A DNA stretch of 64,000 nt from Candidatus Poseidoniaceae archaeon (lineage in GTDB: Archaea; Thermoplasmatota; Poseidoniia; Poseidoniales; Poseidoniaceae): positions 1 to 64,000 of the forward strand of contig JASLKG010000002.1 of the NCBI GenBank assembly GCA_030747695.1, given 5' to 3'. The position numbers and the translations under genes are program-made. Positions 38,934-44,188 of this stretch are shown one piece after another; position 1 is the first letter of the stretch; each line of letters starts with the position of its first letter. The notes beneath the pieces were generated by a model. It searched no databases. It saw only the letters and a program-made list of their open reading frames with translations, and was not told the origin of the DNA.

Positions 38934-39347
38934 TCACTGTAATAAAACAAAATTTTCTTCACCACAATCAAATAGTAATCCCTGAGAAATTGCTTCCTGT
39001 ATTACATAGGAAACTTCAATCATTATTCCACGAGACAATAGTGATGAGGACAACATTTCGGTAGTTAATTTACCATCGATAGAAGCGTCCTCTATTGCCA
39101 GTAATAAGTCTCCAGGAGAAGGTTTTGATATTACTTCGATATTACGTGGCATTTTTCTTGCCATCTCATCTCTCAACTCTGTTGGCATATTGGCTAATGC
39201 AACTGCCCTTTGTAGATCACCAGCACTATCCATGGTTCCTACTACTTCTGAATCTGAAAAAATTGAACCACAATGTGGACACTTTTTTGCACGCCCTTTA
39301 GAACCTGAATGGCGTTCACAATTTATGCACTTAATAACATAATACAT
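38934..39347 (-). CDS. Zinc-ribbon protein with C-terminal helical (wHTH-like) domain
   Basis: A 137-residue protein starting 'MYYVIKCINCERHSGSKG' and continuing 'KKCPHCGSIF', a four-Cys zinc ribbon of the type seen in archaeal DUF5817-like proteins. The C-terminal half (about 75-137) looks like a small winged-helix ('GKLTTEMLSSSLLSRGI...VIQEAISQGLLFD'). This suggests a nucleic-acid-binding or regulatory protein; the target is unknown. It is followed, leftward, only by tRNA-Pro and the convergent parvulin gene. Confidence 0.78.
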   Translation of the reverse strand: MYYVIKCINCERHSGSKGRAKKCPHCGSIFSDSEVVGTMDSAGDLQRAVALANMPTELRDEMARKMPRNIEVISKPSPGDLLLAIEDASIDGKLTTEMLSSSLLSRGIMIEVSYVIQEAISQGLLFDCGEENFVLLQ

Positions 39348-39356
39348 TTTATCACT

Positions 39357-40040
39357 TCAGAGGGAAAAATCAGTCCCGCCGTCAGTGTTTTGTCTTCTCT
39401 GTCCAGGCCTCATTGCTGGCGCTGCTGGTGCCTTTGTATCTACTCTCTTAGCAGCGTTAGCCATTGCATCAGTGGCTTGTCGTGTTAATCCACCACGAAC
39501 ACGTCCTACAGAACCACCACCGCTTAATTTGAGAGATTCTGGTAAAATCAATGCCGCCATAGCAACACCAAAATGCTCCTGAGCCGCTGTCACTTCATCA
39601 ACTGCGACATCAAATGATTGAACTTCCAAATCTCTACTAGCTAATCTTCTTTGCAAATTACGTTTTAGCCTCGATTCCGTTTCTTCATAATCAAGTTCTG
39701 TAGATATTTTCGCAACTATAGCACAATCTTCCCCCTCTGGTGTAGTGCATGCTGCCCATGCAACACCTGCACAAGCACTTGAACCATTATAGGCATATGC
39801 AGTTGCCAAGTGACACTCTACCAATGAGCCCATAGGCAGTGCTTGAGGAGGAGTTGCCTCGAAACCCATTGGCAAAAAAGCTCCATGGACTTCAATCAAA
39901 CGTGAGTCGCCTAATCCCATTTCAACTAAGCCTTGATCGTATGCATCTTCAGCGTTTTCACCCCATGGTGCTACTGCTGTCATTAACCACCCTGGACAAG
40001 CCGCGGCCGCTGCTTTTGGAGTATTGCCGGTTCCGAACAT
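39357..40040 (-). CDS. Pyruvoyl-dependent arginine decarboxylase homologue lacking the pyruvoyl-forming serine
   Basis: About 227 residues from ATG 40040 (a TTG four codons upstream also fits). The framework matches PdaD: 'NAEDAYDQGLVEMGLGDSRL', 'LPMGSLVECHLATAY', 'DYEETESRLKRNL' and 'EHFGVAMAALIL'. PdaD cleaves itself between two Ser in an 'ISSIMPP'-like segment to make a pyruvoyl group; here the aligned segment is 'IEVHGAFLPMG', so both Ser are gone. The catalytic Glu that follows the 'C-G-L-I-M' strand also appears to be Lys ('CAIVAKIS'). A Gly/Arg/Ala-rich C-terminal tail of about 60 residues is extra. It may be a non-catalytic paralogue or have a new activity. Confidence 0.75.
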   Translation of the reverse strand: MFGTGNTPKAAAAACPGWLMTAVAPWGENAEDAYDQGLVEMGLGDSRLIEVHGAFLPMGFEATPPQALPMGSLVECHLATAYAYNGSSACAGVAWAACTTPEGEDCAIVAKISTELDYEETESRLKRNLQRRLASRDLEVQSFDVAVDEVTAAQEHFGVAMAALILPESLKLSGGGSVGRVRGGLTRQATDAMANAAKRVDTKAPAAPAMRPGQRRQNTDGGTDFSL

Positions 40041-40093
40041 ATAGTAAGCCAAGAGGGGTGAGGTTCATCAAGGCCTTGGTCTTAACCACTGGT

Positions 40094-40393
40094 ATGGCGA
40101 TGAATTCGCGGACATTGTTATTCGTCGGAGCCATAATGATCTTGACAATTACATCGGGAGCATTTCTAAGTAGCGGTTCGGGATGGAAAATGCCCATGAC
40201 TGTCATATTAGTCGGTCTGTTTGTTGCACTAAATTTATTTGTTTTCGGAGTATTCCTAGATTCAAAATCAACTGGAAAAGGTTCAACGCCTCTTCAGGTA
40301 AAAAAGGCTACTAAAGCAAATAATTCTGATATTGAATCCAACGAAAACCTTCCCAATCCTGAAGAAAGCGGAATTGAACTGCCAATTTTATAA
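40094..40393 (+). CDS. Small membrane protein, unknown
   Basis: About 99 residues from ATG 40094 (ATG 40100 also possible). Two transmembrane helices ('TLLFVGAIMILTITSGAFL' and 'MTVILVGLFVALNLFVFGV') are followed by a polar, Asn/Glu-rich cytoplasmic tail. The frame is open upstream, but that part overlaps the divergent PdaD-like gene. No family recognised. Its stop directly precedes the convergent fttA stop. Confidence 0.6.
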   Translation: MAMNSRTLLFVGAIMILTITSGAFLSSGSGWKMPMTVILVGLFVALNLFVFGVFLDSKSTGKGSTPLQVKKATKANNSDIESNENLPNPEESGIELPIL

Positions 40394-42298
40394 TCAACTT
40401 AATCTCACAGTTTCAAGATTTTGTGGTGCATAGGTTCTAACTTTGAATTTTTCTCGAAGTGTCCTACCTAATTCATTGCACTTGAAATAATCACCATGGT
40501 GACAAATAACATTCTTAGGCCGTGGACTCATGTTTTCTATAAATTCAAGGAGTTGCCTTCTATCAGAATGTCCACTAAAGCCGTCAATTGTAGCCATTTC
40601 ACATCCAATTTTGACTATTTCTGTTTTACCTTCAATTATCATTGGTACTTCACTAAATCCTTTTTGCAATCTACGGCCAAGAGTGCCTTCTGCTTGATAT
40701 CCAACGAAGCAGAGTGAATTTCTATTTTCATGTGCCCAATTTTGGAAATATTGCATGACAGGCCCTCCATTCATCATACCACTAGTTGCTAGAACAATAC
40801 AAGGTCTACTATCCATAAGTATCGATTCTCGCATCTCTCTCCCCTGAACTGGCCGGAACCAATCAGAAGTGAAGGGATTGTCATCATCATCCTTCAACAA
40901 ACTCTTGCGCAAAACCTGTGTCAGATAATTAGGATGGGCCGAATGAATTGCTGTTGCTTCCTGTATCATCCCATCTAAATACACTGGAACTGGATTTACA
41001 GTACCTGATCTAAACAATTCATCTATAGCAATCATGACCTCTTGTGAACGACCTACAGCAAACACAGGACATATCAATTTACCACCTCGTTTTATTGTTC
41101 GACTAACTATGTCTTGCAACTCTTGATTTGCTTCTTCCCTACTTGGTTGAAAATCACCTGATGCTCCATATGTGGATTCTATTACCAGTGTTTCACACCT
41201 CGGAAAACGCGTATTTGCGGCATCAAATAGCCATGATTTCTCATATTTTTGATCACCACTAAAGACAATATTATGCTTACCATCTCCTACATGTAGATGT
41301 ACAGATGATGATCCTAAAATGTGCCCAGCATTATGCAGTGTCAGCTTAATATCCGGTGCAACATCTACTGTTTGTCCCCAATCCACATCAACAACGTGAC
41401 GCATACAAGTTCTGATATCTTCCATATCATATGGAGCTCTCTTGCCCTCTGCCCCTCCAACTTTAAGATAGTCTGATTGTAATAATAACATCATATCCCT
41501 TGTAGGAGGTGTGCAATAAACGGGTCCGCGATAGCCATAACGAAATAATACTGGCAACATACCTGCATGATCTAGATGTGCGTGTGTTAGTATTACTGCA
41601 TCCAATTTGTCCATTGGTAGTGCTTCGGGCGCAGTGAAATAGGGCATTGGATCTGTGTCTGATGCAATATTCACGCCTACATCAATCATCACTCGGCTTT
41701 CATTTGTGGTTACCAAATGGCAAGCTCTACCAACTTCTCTATATGAGCCAAGACCTGTAGTCCTTACCCAAAATGAGCCAGGTCGTTGTGGGCGGTATAT
41801 GTTTAGACCGAAATCTTTCAACATTTTCCGTCTTTCTTTAGCATGTGCTGCTCGATAGCCTCTGATATCATGAACCGTTTTTGAATGAATAGGAGGTGTT
41901 CTTTCAAATTTAACTAGCCATCCGCATTCATCTCTAATTGATTTAGCATTAACGCCACGGCGGCCGACTGCCTCTCCAGGATTGCCACAAACTACTGTTA
42001 CTTCACAATAACATCCATCAAAATAAATTGCCTCGACACCAGCCTTTTCATCCAATAGTTCTCTGATAAATATCTCAGTTTCTTCCTCTGATTTCATTAT
42101 AGATTCATGTGGCCTCAGTACTATTCTTCGCTTTATTTTCTTAGCAATTTTACCAATTAAACCATCACCAGATCCAAAAACTTCCGGATTAGGAGTAATT
42201 ATTGCAATGTCTCCAGCCTCCAAATCAACATCGTAGTCCGTCCCCTTAGGGACTATCTTAGCAATTTCATCTTTCATCTCTTTGAAACTTAATCTCAT
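40394..42298 (-). CDS. fttA: FttA/aCPSF1, KH-domain beta-CASP ribonuclease and transcription termination factor
   Basis: A 634-residue protein, the usual length. Two N-terminal KH-like domains (to about residue 150; 'GVEAIYFDGCYCEVTVVCG', 'VGRRGVNAKSIRDECGW') precede the metallo-beta-lactamase core with 'LTHAHLDHAGMLP' (HxHxDH), 'HNAGHILGSSSVH', and the beta-CASP part ending 'DGFSGHSDRRQLLEFIE'. It is homologous to eukaryotic CPSF73 and in archaea cleaves nascent RNA to end transcription. A GGAGGTG Shine-Dalgarno lies upstream of the ATG. The 88-base gap to psmB carries two hairpins. Confidence 0.96.
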   Translation of the reverse strand: MRLSFKEMKDEIAKIVPKGTDYDVDLEAGDIAIITPNPEVFGSGDGLIGKIAKKIKRRIVLRPHESIMKSEEETEIFIRELLDEKAGVEAIYFDGCYCEVTVVCGNPGEAVGRRGVNAKSIRDECGWLVKFERTPPIHSKTVHDIRGYRAAHAKERRKMLKDFGLNIYRPQRPGSFWVRTTGLGSYREVGRACHLVTTNESRVMIDVGVNIASDTDPMPYFTAPEALPMDKLDAVILTHAHLDHAGMLPVLFRYGYRGPVYCTPPTRDMMLLLQSDYLKVGGAEGKRAPYDMEDIRTCMRHVVDVDWGQTVDVAPDIKLTLHNAGHILGSSSVHLHVGDGKHNIVFSGDQKYEKSWLFDAANTRFPRCETLVIESTYGASGDFQPSREEANQELQDIVSRTIKRGGKLICPVFAVGRSQEVMIAIDELFRSGTVNPVPVYLDGMIQEATAIHSAHPNYLTQVLRKSLLKDDDDNPFTSDWFRPVQGREMRESILMDSRPCIVLATSGMMNGGPVMQYFQNWAHENRNSLCFVGYQAEGTLGRRLQKGFSEVPMIIEGKTEIVKIGCEMATIDGFSGHSDRRQLLEFIENMSPRPKNVICHHGDYFKCNELGRTLREKFKVRTYAPQNLETVRLS

Positions 42299-42386: not shown

Positions 42387-43031
42387 TTACTTTTTCAGAA
42401 CCTTGTTGATTTCGCTCTGTTCGACAGGAACGAATCCATCTTTTGAAGTAATTACAGCTAGGTCCATGCCGTTTCCAGACGCTGCATCACGCTGTGCGGA
42501 GGCAGAAAGGGATCGTGCTGCCAAGGCAACGGCTTCATCTCTTGACATTGAATCGCTAAATCCATCCTCTAAGACACCATACATATATGGTGAGCCTGAG
42601 CCTGTTGCACAATATGAATCCGGTATTGAGCCACCCGCTGAATCAATAGAATATACTGAACCACCATCATCATCGACACCAACTATCAACAGTTGTACCC
42701 AATGTGGTCTTCCAGAAAGTATGTTTGCAGTTAGTGTTGCTGCACCCTTTACAGTCATCTTATCATCTCTCTTTAGTTCAAAGAGTGAAACTTCTGCTGC
42801 TAGCGTTCTAGCAAGAGATTGTGCGTGTCCAACTAATCCAGCAGTTGTAAGTGCAAGATTATCTCCTATCTTGAATAGTTTCTGTACGCTTTTATTTGCA
42901 ACGAAATGGCCCATTGTAGCCCTGTGATCTGCACCAACAACGACACCACCTTTGAATGTGATTCCTATGGTGCTAGTACCGGTTTTGAATGCTCCTGGAC
43001 CCTCATCGCTCATCGATAAACCCTCTGACAT
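42387..43031 (-). CDS. psmB: Proteasome subunit beta
   Basis: A 214-residue precursor. The propeptide (about 18 residues) is removed before Thr19 in 'FKTGTSTIGI', exposing the catalytic N-terminal Thr. The Asp and Lys of the active site lie in 'VVVGADHRATMG' and 'NKSVQKLFKI'. The C-terminal half contains 'YSIDSAGGSIPDSYCATGSG' and 'SRDEAVALAARSL', standard for archaeal beta subunits. It forms the 20S core with an alpha subunit encoded elsewhere. Confidence 0.96.
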   Translation of the reverse strand: MSEGLSMSDEGPGAFKTGTSTIGITFKGGVVVGADHRATMGHFVANKSVQKLFKIGDNLALTTAGLVGHAQSLARTLAAEVSLFELKRDDKMTVKGAATLTANILSGRPHWVQLLIVGVDDDGGSVYSIDSAGGSIPDSYCATGSGSPYMYGVLEDGFSDSMSRDEAVALAARSLSASAQRDAASGNGMDLAVITSKDGFVPVEQSEINKVLKK

Positions 43032-43108: not shown

Positions 43109-43573
43109 ATGACGGAGGATGAGGAGCGCCAAACCTCGCTCGACACATTCAGTGGCGCACCGCCAAGAACCCTGAATTTGCCTTCAGAACAAAATCTCAA
43201 CGCTGTTGTCGATGATTCACAATCTTCAACATATCATGACCTTGATTCTTTGTATCCTAATGCACCTGTACCCAAACAAAGTGGTGGCTTGGTTTTGCAT
43301 AGAGCTACACTGCATGATGTTACAGGTGTAAATACACTACTAGACTGGCTTGCTGATGGTGAAGCTGTGATTGTTGAAATGGAGAGGTTAATGTCTAGAG
43401 GTGTTGAATTAACAACCGCTTTAGAGCAATTAACTAAATTTATAGAACTCGACACAGGAGGGCAAATTGTAAGGTTAACTGATACAAGATTGATGTTGTT
43501 GCCTCCTGGATGTAGAGGCGTACGTGGAGTTGAAACTGAAGCATTTGCCTCTGACATGGATGATTTGTTGTGA
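43109..43573 (+). CDS. SepF-like cell-division protein
   Basis: A 154-residue protein. Residues about 65-135 match the SepF core (DUF552): 'HRATLHDVTGVNTLLDWLADG', 'AVIVEMERL', 'LTTALEQLTKFIE', 'GGQIVRLTDTRLMLLPPG'. SepF links FtsZ rings to the membrane and is the main FtsZ anchor in many archaea. The N-terminal 60 residues are polar and lack an obvious amphipathic membrane-targeting helix. It precedes the ZPR1 gene by 9 bases. Assignment is good but not certain. Confidence 0.75.
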   Translation: MTEDEERQTSLDTFSGAPPRTLNLPSEQNLNAVVDDSQSSTYHDLDSLYPNAPVPKQSGGLVLHRATLHDVTGVNTLLDWLADGEAVIVEMERLMSRGVELTTALEQLTKFIELDTGGQIVRLTDTRLMLLPPGCRGVRGVETEAFASDMDDLL

Positions 43574-43582
43574 GGGGCATTT

Positions 43583-44188
43583 ATGGATGAAGTACCTATT
43601 GCGACACCTTGTCCTGTCTGTGGTGTGGAAGGACATGTCGGAATGTTAACACATATCGATGAGATACCATACTTTGGCGAGCACACACAAGTTACAGTTC
43701 TGTGCCATGATTGTGGATGGAGACAATCAGATTTTATTCCTGCAGAGGGGAAAAAACCTGGCGCTTGGAGTTTAATCATTAACAAGCCAGAGCATATCAG
43801 AGCGCGTGTTGTCCGGTCTTCTTCTTGCACAATACGTATTTCTGAACTTGATTTAGAAGTTAATCCAGGGACTTCCTCTACTGGATATGTTTCAAATGTA
43901 GAGGGCGTAATTGACAGGTTCATGGAGATCATCGTTATGGTTACGAGGCAAGCCTATGTTGATGATTCTGAAATCGAAGTAATAAATCAATTACAAAAAA
44001 TGCATACAACACTTCTCGAACTAAAAGAGGACCCAATTCCTAATCCAGTTACACTTGAATTTCTAGACCCTCAAGGCCACTCACAAATATTACACGAAGA
44101 TTCTGTTAGTAGAGAATTAGAACCTGATGAGTTTGAACAATTACCTACTGGACCTGAACCTGCTGTATTTGAGAAAAATGATTTGTAG
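43583..44188 (+). CDS. ZPR1 zinc-finger domain protein
   Basis: A 201-residue archaeal ZPR1 with a four-Cys zinc finger ('TPCPVCGVEGHVGM...VTVLCHDCGWRQSDF', two CxxC pairs) and the A-domain ('SGTSSTGYVSNVEGVIDRF'-like; here 'NPGTSSTGYVSNVEGVIDR'). In eukaryotes ZPR1 is an EF-1A folding chaperone, and the archaeal form may serve aEF-1alpha. A GAGGGG Shine-Dalgarno precedes the ATG. Co-transcribed with the SepF-like gene; converges on trpS. Confidence 0.93.
   Translation: MDEVPIATPCPVCGVEGHVGMLTHIDEIPYFGEHTQVTVLCHDCGWRQSDFIPAEGKKPGAWSLIINKPEHIRARVVRSSSCTIRISELDLEVNPGTSSTGYVSNVEGVIDRFMEIIVMVTRQAYVDDSEIEVINQLQKMHTTLLELKEDPIPNPVTLEFLDPQGHSQILHEDSVSRELEPDEFEQLPTGPEPAVFEKNDL

Follow-up and report, generated by a model that had tools for sequence, protein, structure and literature searches.

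PdaL, a conserved pseudoenzyme with the fold of pyruvoyl-dependent arginine decarboxylase in Poseidoniales

We analyzed a gene, here called pdaL, in a 64,000-nucleotide stretch of a Candidatus Poseidoniaceae genome (the stretch is referred to as the window, and the genome as the host genome). The product of pdaL is a pseudoenzyme conserved in Poseidoniales (Marine Group II), and the gene is the positional descendant of an active pyruvoyl-dependent arginine decarboxylase (PdaD). Its pseudoenzyme status is well supported by the loss of the residues that self-cleavage and catalysis depend on in PdaD. An earlier sequence-only reading of the window had described a PdaD-fold protein lacking the catalytic apparatus; that observation holds overall, and only the register of Ser53 needs correction.

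The pdaL gene and its neighborhood

The pdaL reading frame is real, running on the minus strand from an ATG at 40040 to a stop codon at 39357-39359, with a TTG at 40052 as a possible alternative start. The gene and its surroundings are given in Table 1. The small hydrophobic protein encoded between aCPSF1 and pdaL has a weak match to Oxidored_q3, below the cut-off. On the far side of psmB, the window contains a gene whose small product weakly matches SepF (43109-43573; E 0.023, below the cut-off), next to a gene for a ZPR1-like zinc protein (43583-44188); both are kept near psmB in relatives.

Table 1. Features of the pdaL locus (window positions)
Feature	Position	Strand	Evidence or remarks
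pdaL, PdaD-fold pseudoenzyme, 227 aa	39357..40040	-	ORF, PF01862, phmmer, AlphaFold, Foldseek, VIA-align
Low-complexity C-terminal tail of PdaL, residues 172-227, ending in conserved DFSL	39360..39527	-	pLDDT about 40-55
Codons 52-54 (H-G-A), place of self-cleavage Ser52-Ser53	39879..39887	-	Structural and mixed alignment; GA in 71/71
R47, replaces PdaD Asn47	39900..39902	-	70/71 rows, one X; canonical N47 52/52
K111, replaces catalytic Glu109	39708..39710	-	Orthologues T 42, K 24, S 4, gap 1 of 71
D35, retained active-site residue	39936..39938	-	70/71 rows, one X; also conserved in canonical PdaD
ZnR, zinc-ribbon and winged-helix protein (DUF5817-like)	38934..39347	-	9 bases downstream of pdaL stop, same strand; relatives match PF19134
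Small hydrophobic protein gene between aCPSF1 and pdaL	40100..40393	+ (opposite)	Present in part of relatives
aCPSF1/FttA transcription termination factor, conserved neighbor	40394..42298	-	Pfam including KH_TffA; synteny
Proteasome subunit (PsmB-like), conserved neighbor	42387..43031	-	PF00227 3e-50; synteny

Fold and tail of PdaL

The PdaD fold proposed from the sequence blocks was borne out by both profile and structure comparisons. PF01862 matched PdaL with an E value of 1.6e-7 (31.8 bits, cut-off 22.7), and TIGR00286 gave 34.7 bits, far under its equivalog cut-off of 106.95. When PdaL was compared with PDB sequences using phmmer, solved PdaD chains were the sole matches (1n2m at 4.9e-5). 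PdaD is a trimer whose active site lies between subunits; the AlphaFold2 model of PdaL, a monomer generated with 20 orthologues as input, has a core with pLDDT of about 85 to 97 and a disordered tail. The best 12 PDB matches found by Foldseek for this model were all M. jannaschii PdaD, with TM scores of up to 0.88 on the target. VIA-align gave Z scores of 21.1 (rmsd 2.0, 151 residues) and 20.9 (rmsd 1.7, 148 residues) against M. jannaschii PdaD, far higher than those for unrelated rows.

The Gly/Arg-rich C-terminal tail noted earlier is likewise present, with a composition rich in Gly, Ala, Arg, Ser, and Pro and with predicted disorder. The pattern [DN]F[STGN][LFIMW] terminates 68 of 70 PdaL tails, and MDF also occurs at the N-terminus of five members from one of the families carrying the gene (f2). 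A search of the host genome with the tail motif returned 18 matches, compared to 9 in a reversed control. Among these, the sole other long frame with a C-terminal DFSL encodes a lipoprotein-like, single-span membrane protein (L214:1501-2961, minus strand, contig C5), whose long low-complexity tail also has KAP and ends in ...KAPSVADEDFNDFSL; a Pfam scan of this protein gave no match. The DFSL common to the two proteins may be due to chance. We dropped the HbYX proteasome motif as a reading of DFSL, which does not fit the definition of HbYX.

Loss of the catalytic residues

VIA-align placed residue 55 of the PdaL model opposite residue 54 of processed M. jannaschii PdaD, the first modeled residue past the pyruvoyl group; therefore, A54 occupies the place of the pyruvoyl Ser53. 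Alignment of the LP(I/M)G block agrees with this register. Ser52 falls opposite either H52 or G53, according to the position chosen for a one-residue insertion. In the 71 distinct orthologues, which come from 113 loci, A54 and G53 are both invariant (71/71 each), position 52 varies among Q, K, E, H, and R, and no Ser, Thr, or Cys occurs at positions 52-54 in any sequence. The sequence-only reading had the serine pair replaced by HG: both serines are indeed absent, but its register for Ser53 was off by one, and of the HG pair, whose conservation it proposed to check, the glycine is constant and the histidine is not.

In 52 rows of canonical short-type PdaD, some genomes being entered twice, Ser53 and Asn47 occur without exception, and Ser52 and Glu109 reach at least 90%. 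Neither Asn47 nor Glu109 is kept as such in the PdaL orthologues, and the proposed change of the active-site Glu to Lys proved correct for PdaL itself. According to PDB titles, Asn47 and Glu109 of PdaD have been examined as mutants, and the S53A protein is a proenzyme. D35, which acts in substrate binding, is retained.

Two further sites were considered and set aside. NGSSACAG, which had been offered as a serine pair that a better alignment might bring to the cleavage site, is excluded, lying about 33 residues downstream of that site with S/T positions that vary among orthologues; the claim of missing serines holds. C76 was rejected as a new catalytic residue because it is ancestral in the mixed alignment of PdaL and canonical PdaD. 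We are highly confident that pyruvoyl chemistry is absent from the PdaL protein.

Search for an active PdaD and the source of agmatine

Profile searches detected no canonical PdaD in any Poseidoniales genome searched; canonical PdaD is present in MGIII and in most other Thermoplasmatota. One search with PF01862 gave 23 of 194 hits, 20 from MGIII and three being pdaL itself. The phylum-level search gave 161 of 243, and among the matches listed the one in Poseidoniales was the pdaL of genome G059. On these searches we reject an active PdaD elsewhere in the host genome, and the suggestion that PdaL is a structural partner of such an enzyme is not supported. The host genome is 86.88% complete, and the first pass of the PF01862 genome search overlooked the host pdaL in spite of its direct match, which means that a second copy, if strongly diverged, may have escaped detection.

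Of the 61 relatives, 54 have TiaS, the host among them, which implies that agmatine is still wanted. The PLP-type decarboxylase PF02784 was matched in 0 of the 61 relatives, compared to 13 of 14 control genomes, and AdoMet_dc (PF02675) in 55 of the 61, again including the host. On contig C5 of the host genome, a single 442-aa frame (L140:1784-3112, minus strand) joins an AdoMetDC-family domain, a probable SpeDA, to a deoxyhypusine-synthase/SpeY-like domain. The AdoMetDC domain keeps its cleavage serine (motif ESHVSAH), and the fusion gene adjoins an agmatinase-like gene, giving the host genome an AdoMetDC fold with a cleavage serine beside speB and speY/DHS. The best NCBIfam model for the DHS-like domain was homospermidine biosynthesis protein, below its cut-off. 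SpeDA-like and DHS-like genes are separate and adjacent in genomes G036 and G060. Genome G009 has a second AdoMetDC gene (L146:2501-2827; PF02675 E 4e-32), much nearer to the standard profile, which lies amid short ORFs on a contig of 3.3 kb and may stem from contamination or be a mobile copy. The SpeDA fold is unrelated to that of PdaD.

In PMC10407285, DAC51064 of Ca. Poseidoniales was assayed as an arginine decarboxylase (SpeDA) with a kcat/Km of 180 per M per s, AIF02979 of Marine Group II/III also had measured arginine decarboxylase activity, and both genes lie beside speB and speY. Most likely, arginine decarboxylation in Poseidoniales is done by the AdoMetDC-fold SpeDA, and by analogy with the assayed proteins the host fusion would be an active arginine decarboxylase. 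With SpeDA as a nonhomologous replacement, agmatine for TiaS and tRNA-Ile2 was probably not lost. Concern had been raised that losing PdaD function would endanger the agmatine supply; the need for agmatine is upheld by the presence of TiaS, but the supposed loss is largely answered by the SpeDA candidate.

Distribution, selection, and descent

pdaL is present in 38 of the 61 relatives and in 135 of 243 genomes sampled from the class. Counted by family from our tables, it occurs in 109 of 119 f1 genomes and in 26 f2 genomes, all belonging to genera g15, g17, g19, and g22; genome searches did not find it in f2 genera g12, g13, g14, g16, g18, and g20. In six loci read from the pdaL-less f2 genera, psmB, aCPSF1, and ZnR are all kept, and pdaL is missing from the interval that separates aCPSF1 from ZnR. 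Where the gene occurs, its frame is open in nearly all relatives, the exceptions being one internal TAG in G130 (in the 243-genome search) and one TGA in G028 (in the 61-relative search only). Among 16 pairs chosen by hand for dN/dS analysis, omega was 0.007 to 0.084 in 13, and the other three were saturated in dS. Selection of this strength indicates that pdaL still performs some other function.

In a midpoint-rooted tree that included 16 of 21 chosen pdaL rows, all 16 fell on one side of a branch with support of 100/100, whose stem is very long (4.5), as for a single origin; the sister canonical group was not resolved. BLAST located ZnR beside pdaL, and codirectional with it, in 107 of 109 rows (some genomes appear twice among these rows), and the ORFs showed it in the remaining two; the gap between the two genes is -23 to +45 bases in 25 loci. 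In other Thermoplasmatota, we read 43 loci with short-type pdaD among the matches listed (L161, L163, L164, and L166-L205); in 31 of them a DUF5817-like zinc-ribbon/winged-helix gene lies directly 3' of pdaD, and the ends of the two genes often abut or overlap. The motif given for L181 in our table of canonical pdaD loci is a match elsewhere in its frame. pdaL thus has the gene neighbor of the PdaD lineage, and this shared ZnR neighbor is the best evidence that pdaL is a pdaD changed in place, a positional descendant rather than the paralogue that had been suggested. PdaD of MGIII, in the same class, is of the long type with SSILPP and has other neighbors, and we rejected it as the same kind of locus.

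The ZnR partner

ZnR has four invariant cysteines and a predicted structure with pLDDT 93. A Foldseek search with this model found nothing at E 0.001 or better, returning generic, weak winged-helix matches alone. The ZnR in the host window had no PF19134 match at 0.05, and 3 of 20 Poseidoniales ZnR proteins matched at E 0.05 or better; of three scanned relatives beside canonical pdaD, two passed the cut-off of 31 bits (56.5 and 33.7) and one approached it (27.5). A profile built from ZnR genes also recovered the canonical pdaD partners genome-wide.

In Poseidoniales genera that lack pdaL, ZnR persists in all 22 loci read (L153-L158, L224-L239), so it does not strictly need pdaL. The first zinc knuckle is CxC in these 22 proteins, compared to CxxC in 20 of 20 pdaL-linked ZnR (set A3), and one canonical pdaD partner (L180) likewise has CxC. 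The CxC proteins of pdaL-less genera are probably one clade.

Proposed role of PdaL

The best overall explanation, which we think has an even chance of being right, is that SpeDA replaced PdaD and that pdaL was kept as a noncatalytic scaffold or regulator with ZnR. The retained fold, strong selection, lost chemistry, and old partner gene together point to such a role. PdaL would be what vertical inheritance has left of PdaD in Poseidoniales. The AdoMetDC-derived SpeDA would have taken over agmatine synthesis, after which PdaL would have lost the cleavage serine, Asn47, and Glu109, becoming unable to generate the pyruvoyl group and to decarboxylate arginine in its former active site. It would then have been retained, gaining its new tail, for a noncatalytic job, most likely as an oligomeric scaffold or regulator with ZnR, its presumed gene partner since before the catalytic loss; the flexible tails ending in DFSL would serve as putative docking motifs. 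We infer the order of events, the trimer, PdaL-ZnR contact, DFSL docking, and SpeDA activity in the host. The possible regulatory role raised in the sequence-only reading is near this explanation. Against a ZnR partnership, 12 of the 43 canonical pdaD loci among those listed have no recognized adjacent ZnR, and adjacency is not contact.

In a more tentative extension of the scaffold reading, PdaD itself would have an old second, nonenzymatic job with its DUF5817-like partner. Poseidoniales would have split the two jobs, leaving the chemistry to SpeDA and making PdaL a trimeric hub whose DFSL tails recruit proteins, perhaps including the DFSL-ending membrane protein.

Two alternatives seem unlikely, and to a like degree. 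The first is a new enzyme, in which PdaL-specific invariants (R47, E31, E75, H77, and others) would have turned the old pocket into a new active site. In the alignment of PdaL with canonical PdaD, each family conserves a residue of its own at more than 20 positions, several of them next to old active-site positions (L31->E, N32->D, N47->R, S53->A), and D35 is retained. The strongly conserved PdaL-specific residues W18, M20, E31, R47, E75, and H77 are as compatible with a new pocket or enzyme as they are with a scaffold. However, C76 and E149 were inherited from the ancestor, neither a catalytic motif of any known class nor a pathway context was seen, and the neighbors are information-processing genes and ZnR.

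The second is that PdaL is a ligand sensor, binding arginine or agmatine through D35 without turnover and signaling to the winged-helix ZnR protein. The near-constant D35 (X in its one exception) and the codirectional gene for a protein with a zinc ribbon and a winged helix are consistent with this. Glu109 and Asn47 are lost, however, an arginine at position 47 should repel a guanidinium group, and the winged-helix matches of ZnR are weak and generic.

It is very improbable that PdaL is a decaying, functionless leftover: the gene is missing from several f2 genera in which psmB-aCPSF1-ZnR remain (6/6 loci), but the low omega values and open frames already contradict decay. Least credible is a PdaL processed at another residue into an active decarboxylase, for which the invariant T21, C76, and T100 could be invoked, since positions 52-54 lack Ser, Thr, and Cys in 71/71, Asn47 and Glu109 (both probed by PdaD mutant structures) are replaced, and SpeDA makes such an activity unnecessary.

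Significance and comparison with known systems

Our literature search, which covered few subscription journals, found no description of a PdaD pseudoenzyme and no paper on DUF5817, and for Marine Group II/Poseidoniales with arginine decarboxylase the sole paper found was PMC10407285. The accessible parts of that paper contain no mention of PdaD or PvlArgDC that we found, and neither a literature search on aCPSF1 and the proteasome nor passages of PMC4048286 gave a link to PdaD.

pdaL is a clear example from nature in which one enzyme was apparently displaced by another, unrelated one and then conserved as a pseudoenzyme, in a group among the most abundant marine archaea. Annotation based on PF01862 would wrongly assign Poseidoniales an arginine decarboxylase at this gene. 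A testable prediction is that the active PdaD of other archaea also serves a second function together with the uncharacterized DUF5817-like protein.

The AdoMetDC and DHS prozymes of trypanosomatids are dead relatives of polyamine-pathway enzymes that remain under selection and activate a living paralogue. PdaL resembles them as a dead relative kept by selection and differs in that no living PdaD was found. SpeDA (AdoMetDC-derived, PF02675) most likely does the former job of PdaD in the same organisms, and unlike PdaL it keeps its own cleavage serine. Relative to DUF5817 (PF19134), the ZnR relatives beside canonical pdaD reach or approach the cut-off, whereas the Poseidoniales ZnR have drifted. 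Compared to PdaD/PvlArgDC (PF01862, TIGR00286; M. jannaschii 1n2m, 1mt1, 2qqc, 2qqd), PdaL lacks Ser52/Ser53, Asn47, and Glu109, carries an extra low-complexity DFSL tail, and scores far under the equivalog cut-off. It is alike in fold over approximately 150 residues, in D35, and in several structural Gly and Ala residues, and it shares with short-type PdaD a DUF5817-like partner gene of the same kind.
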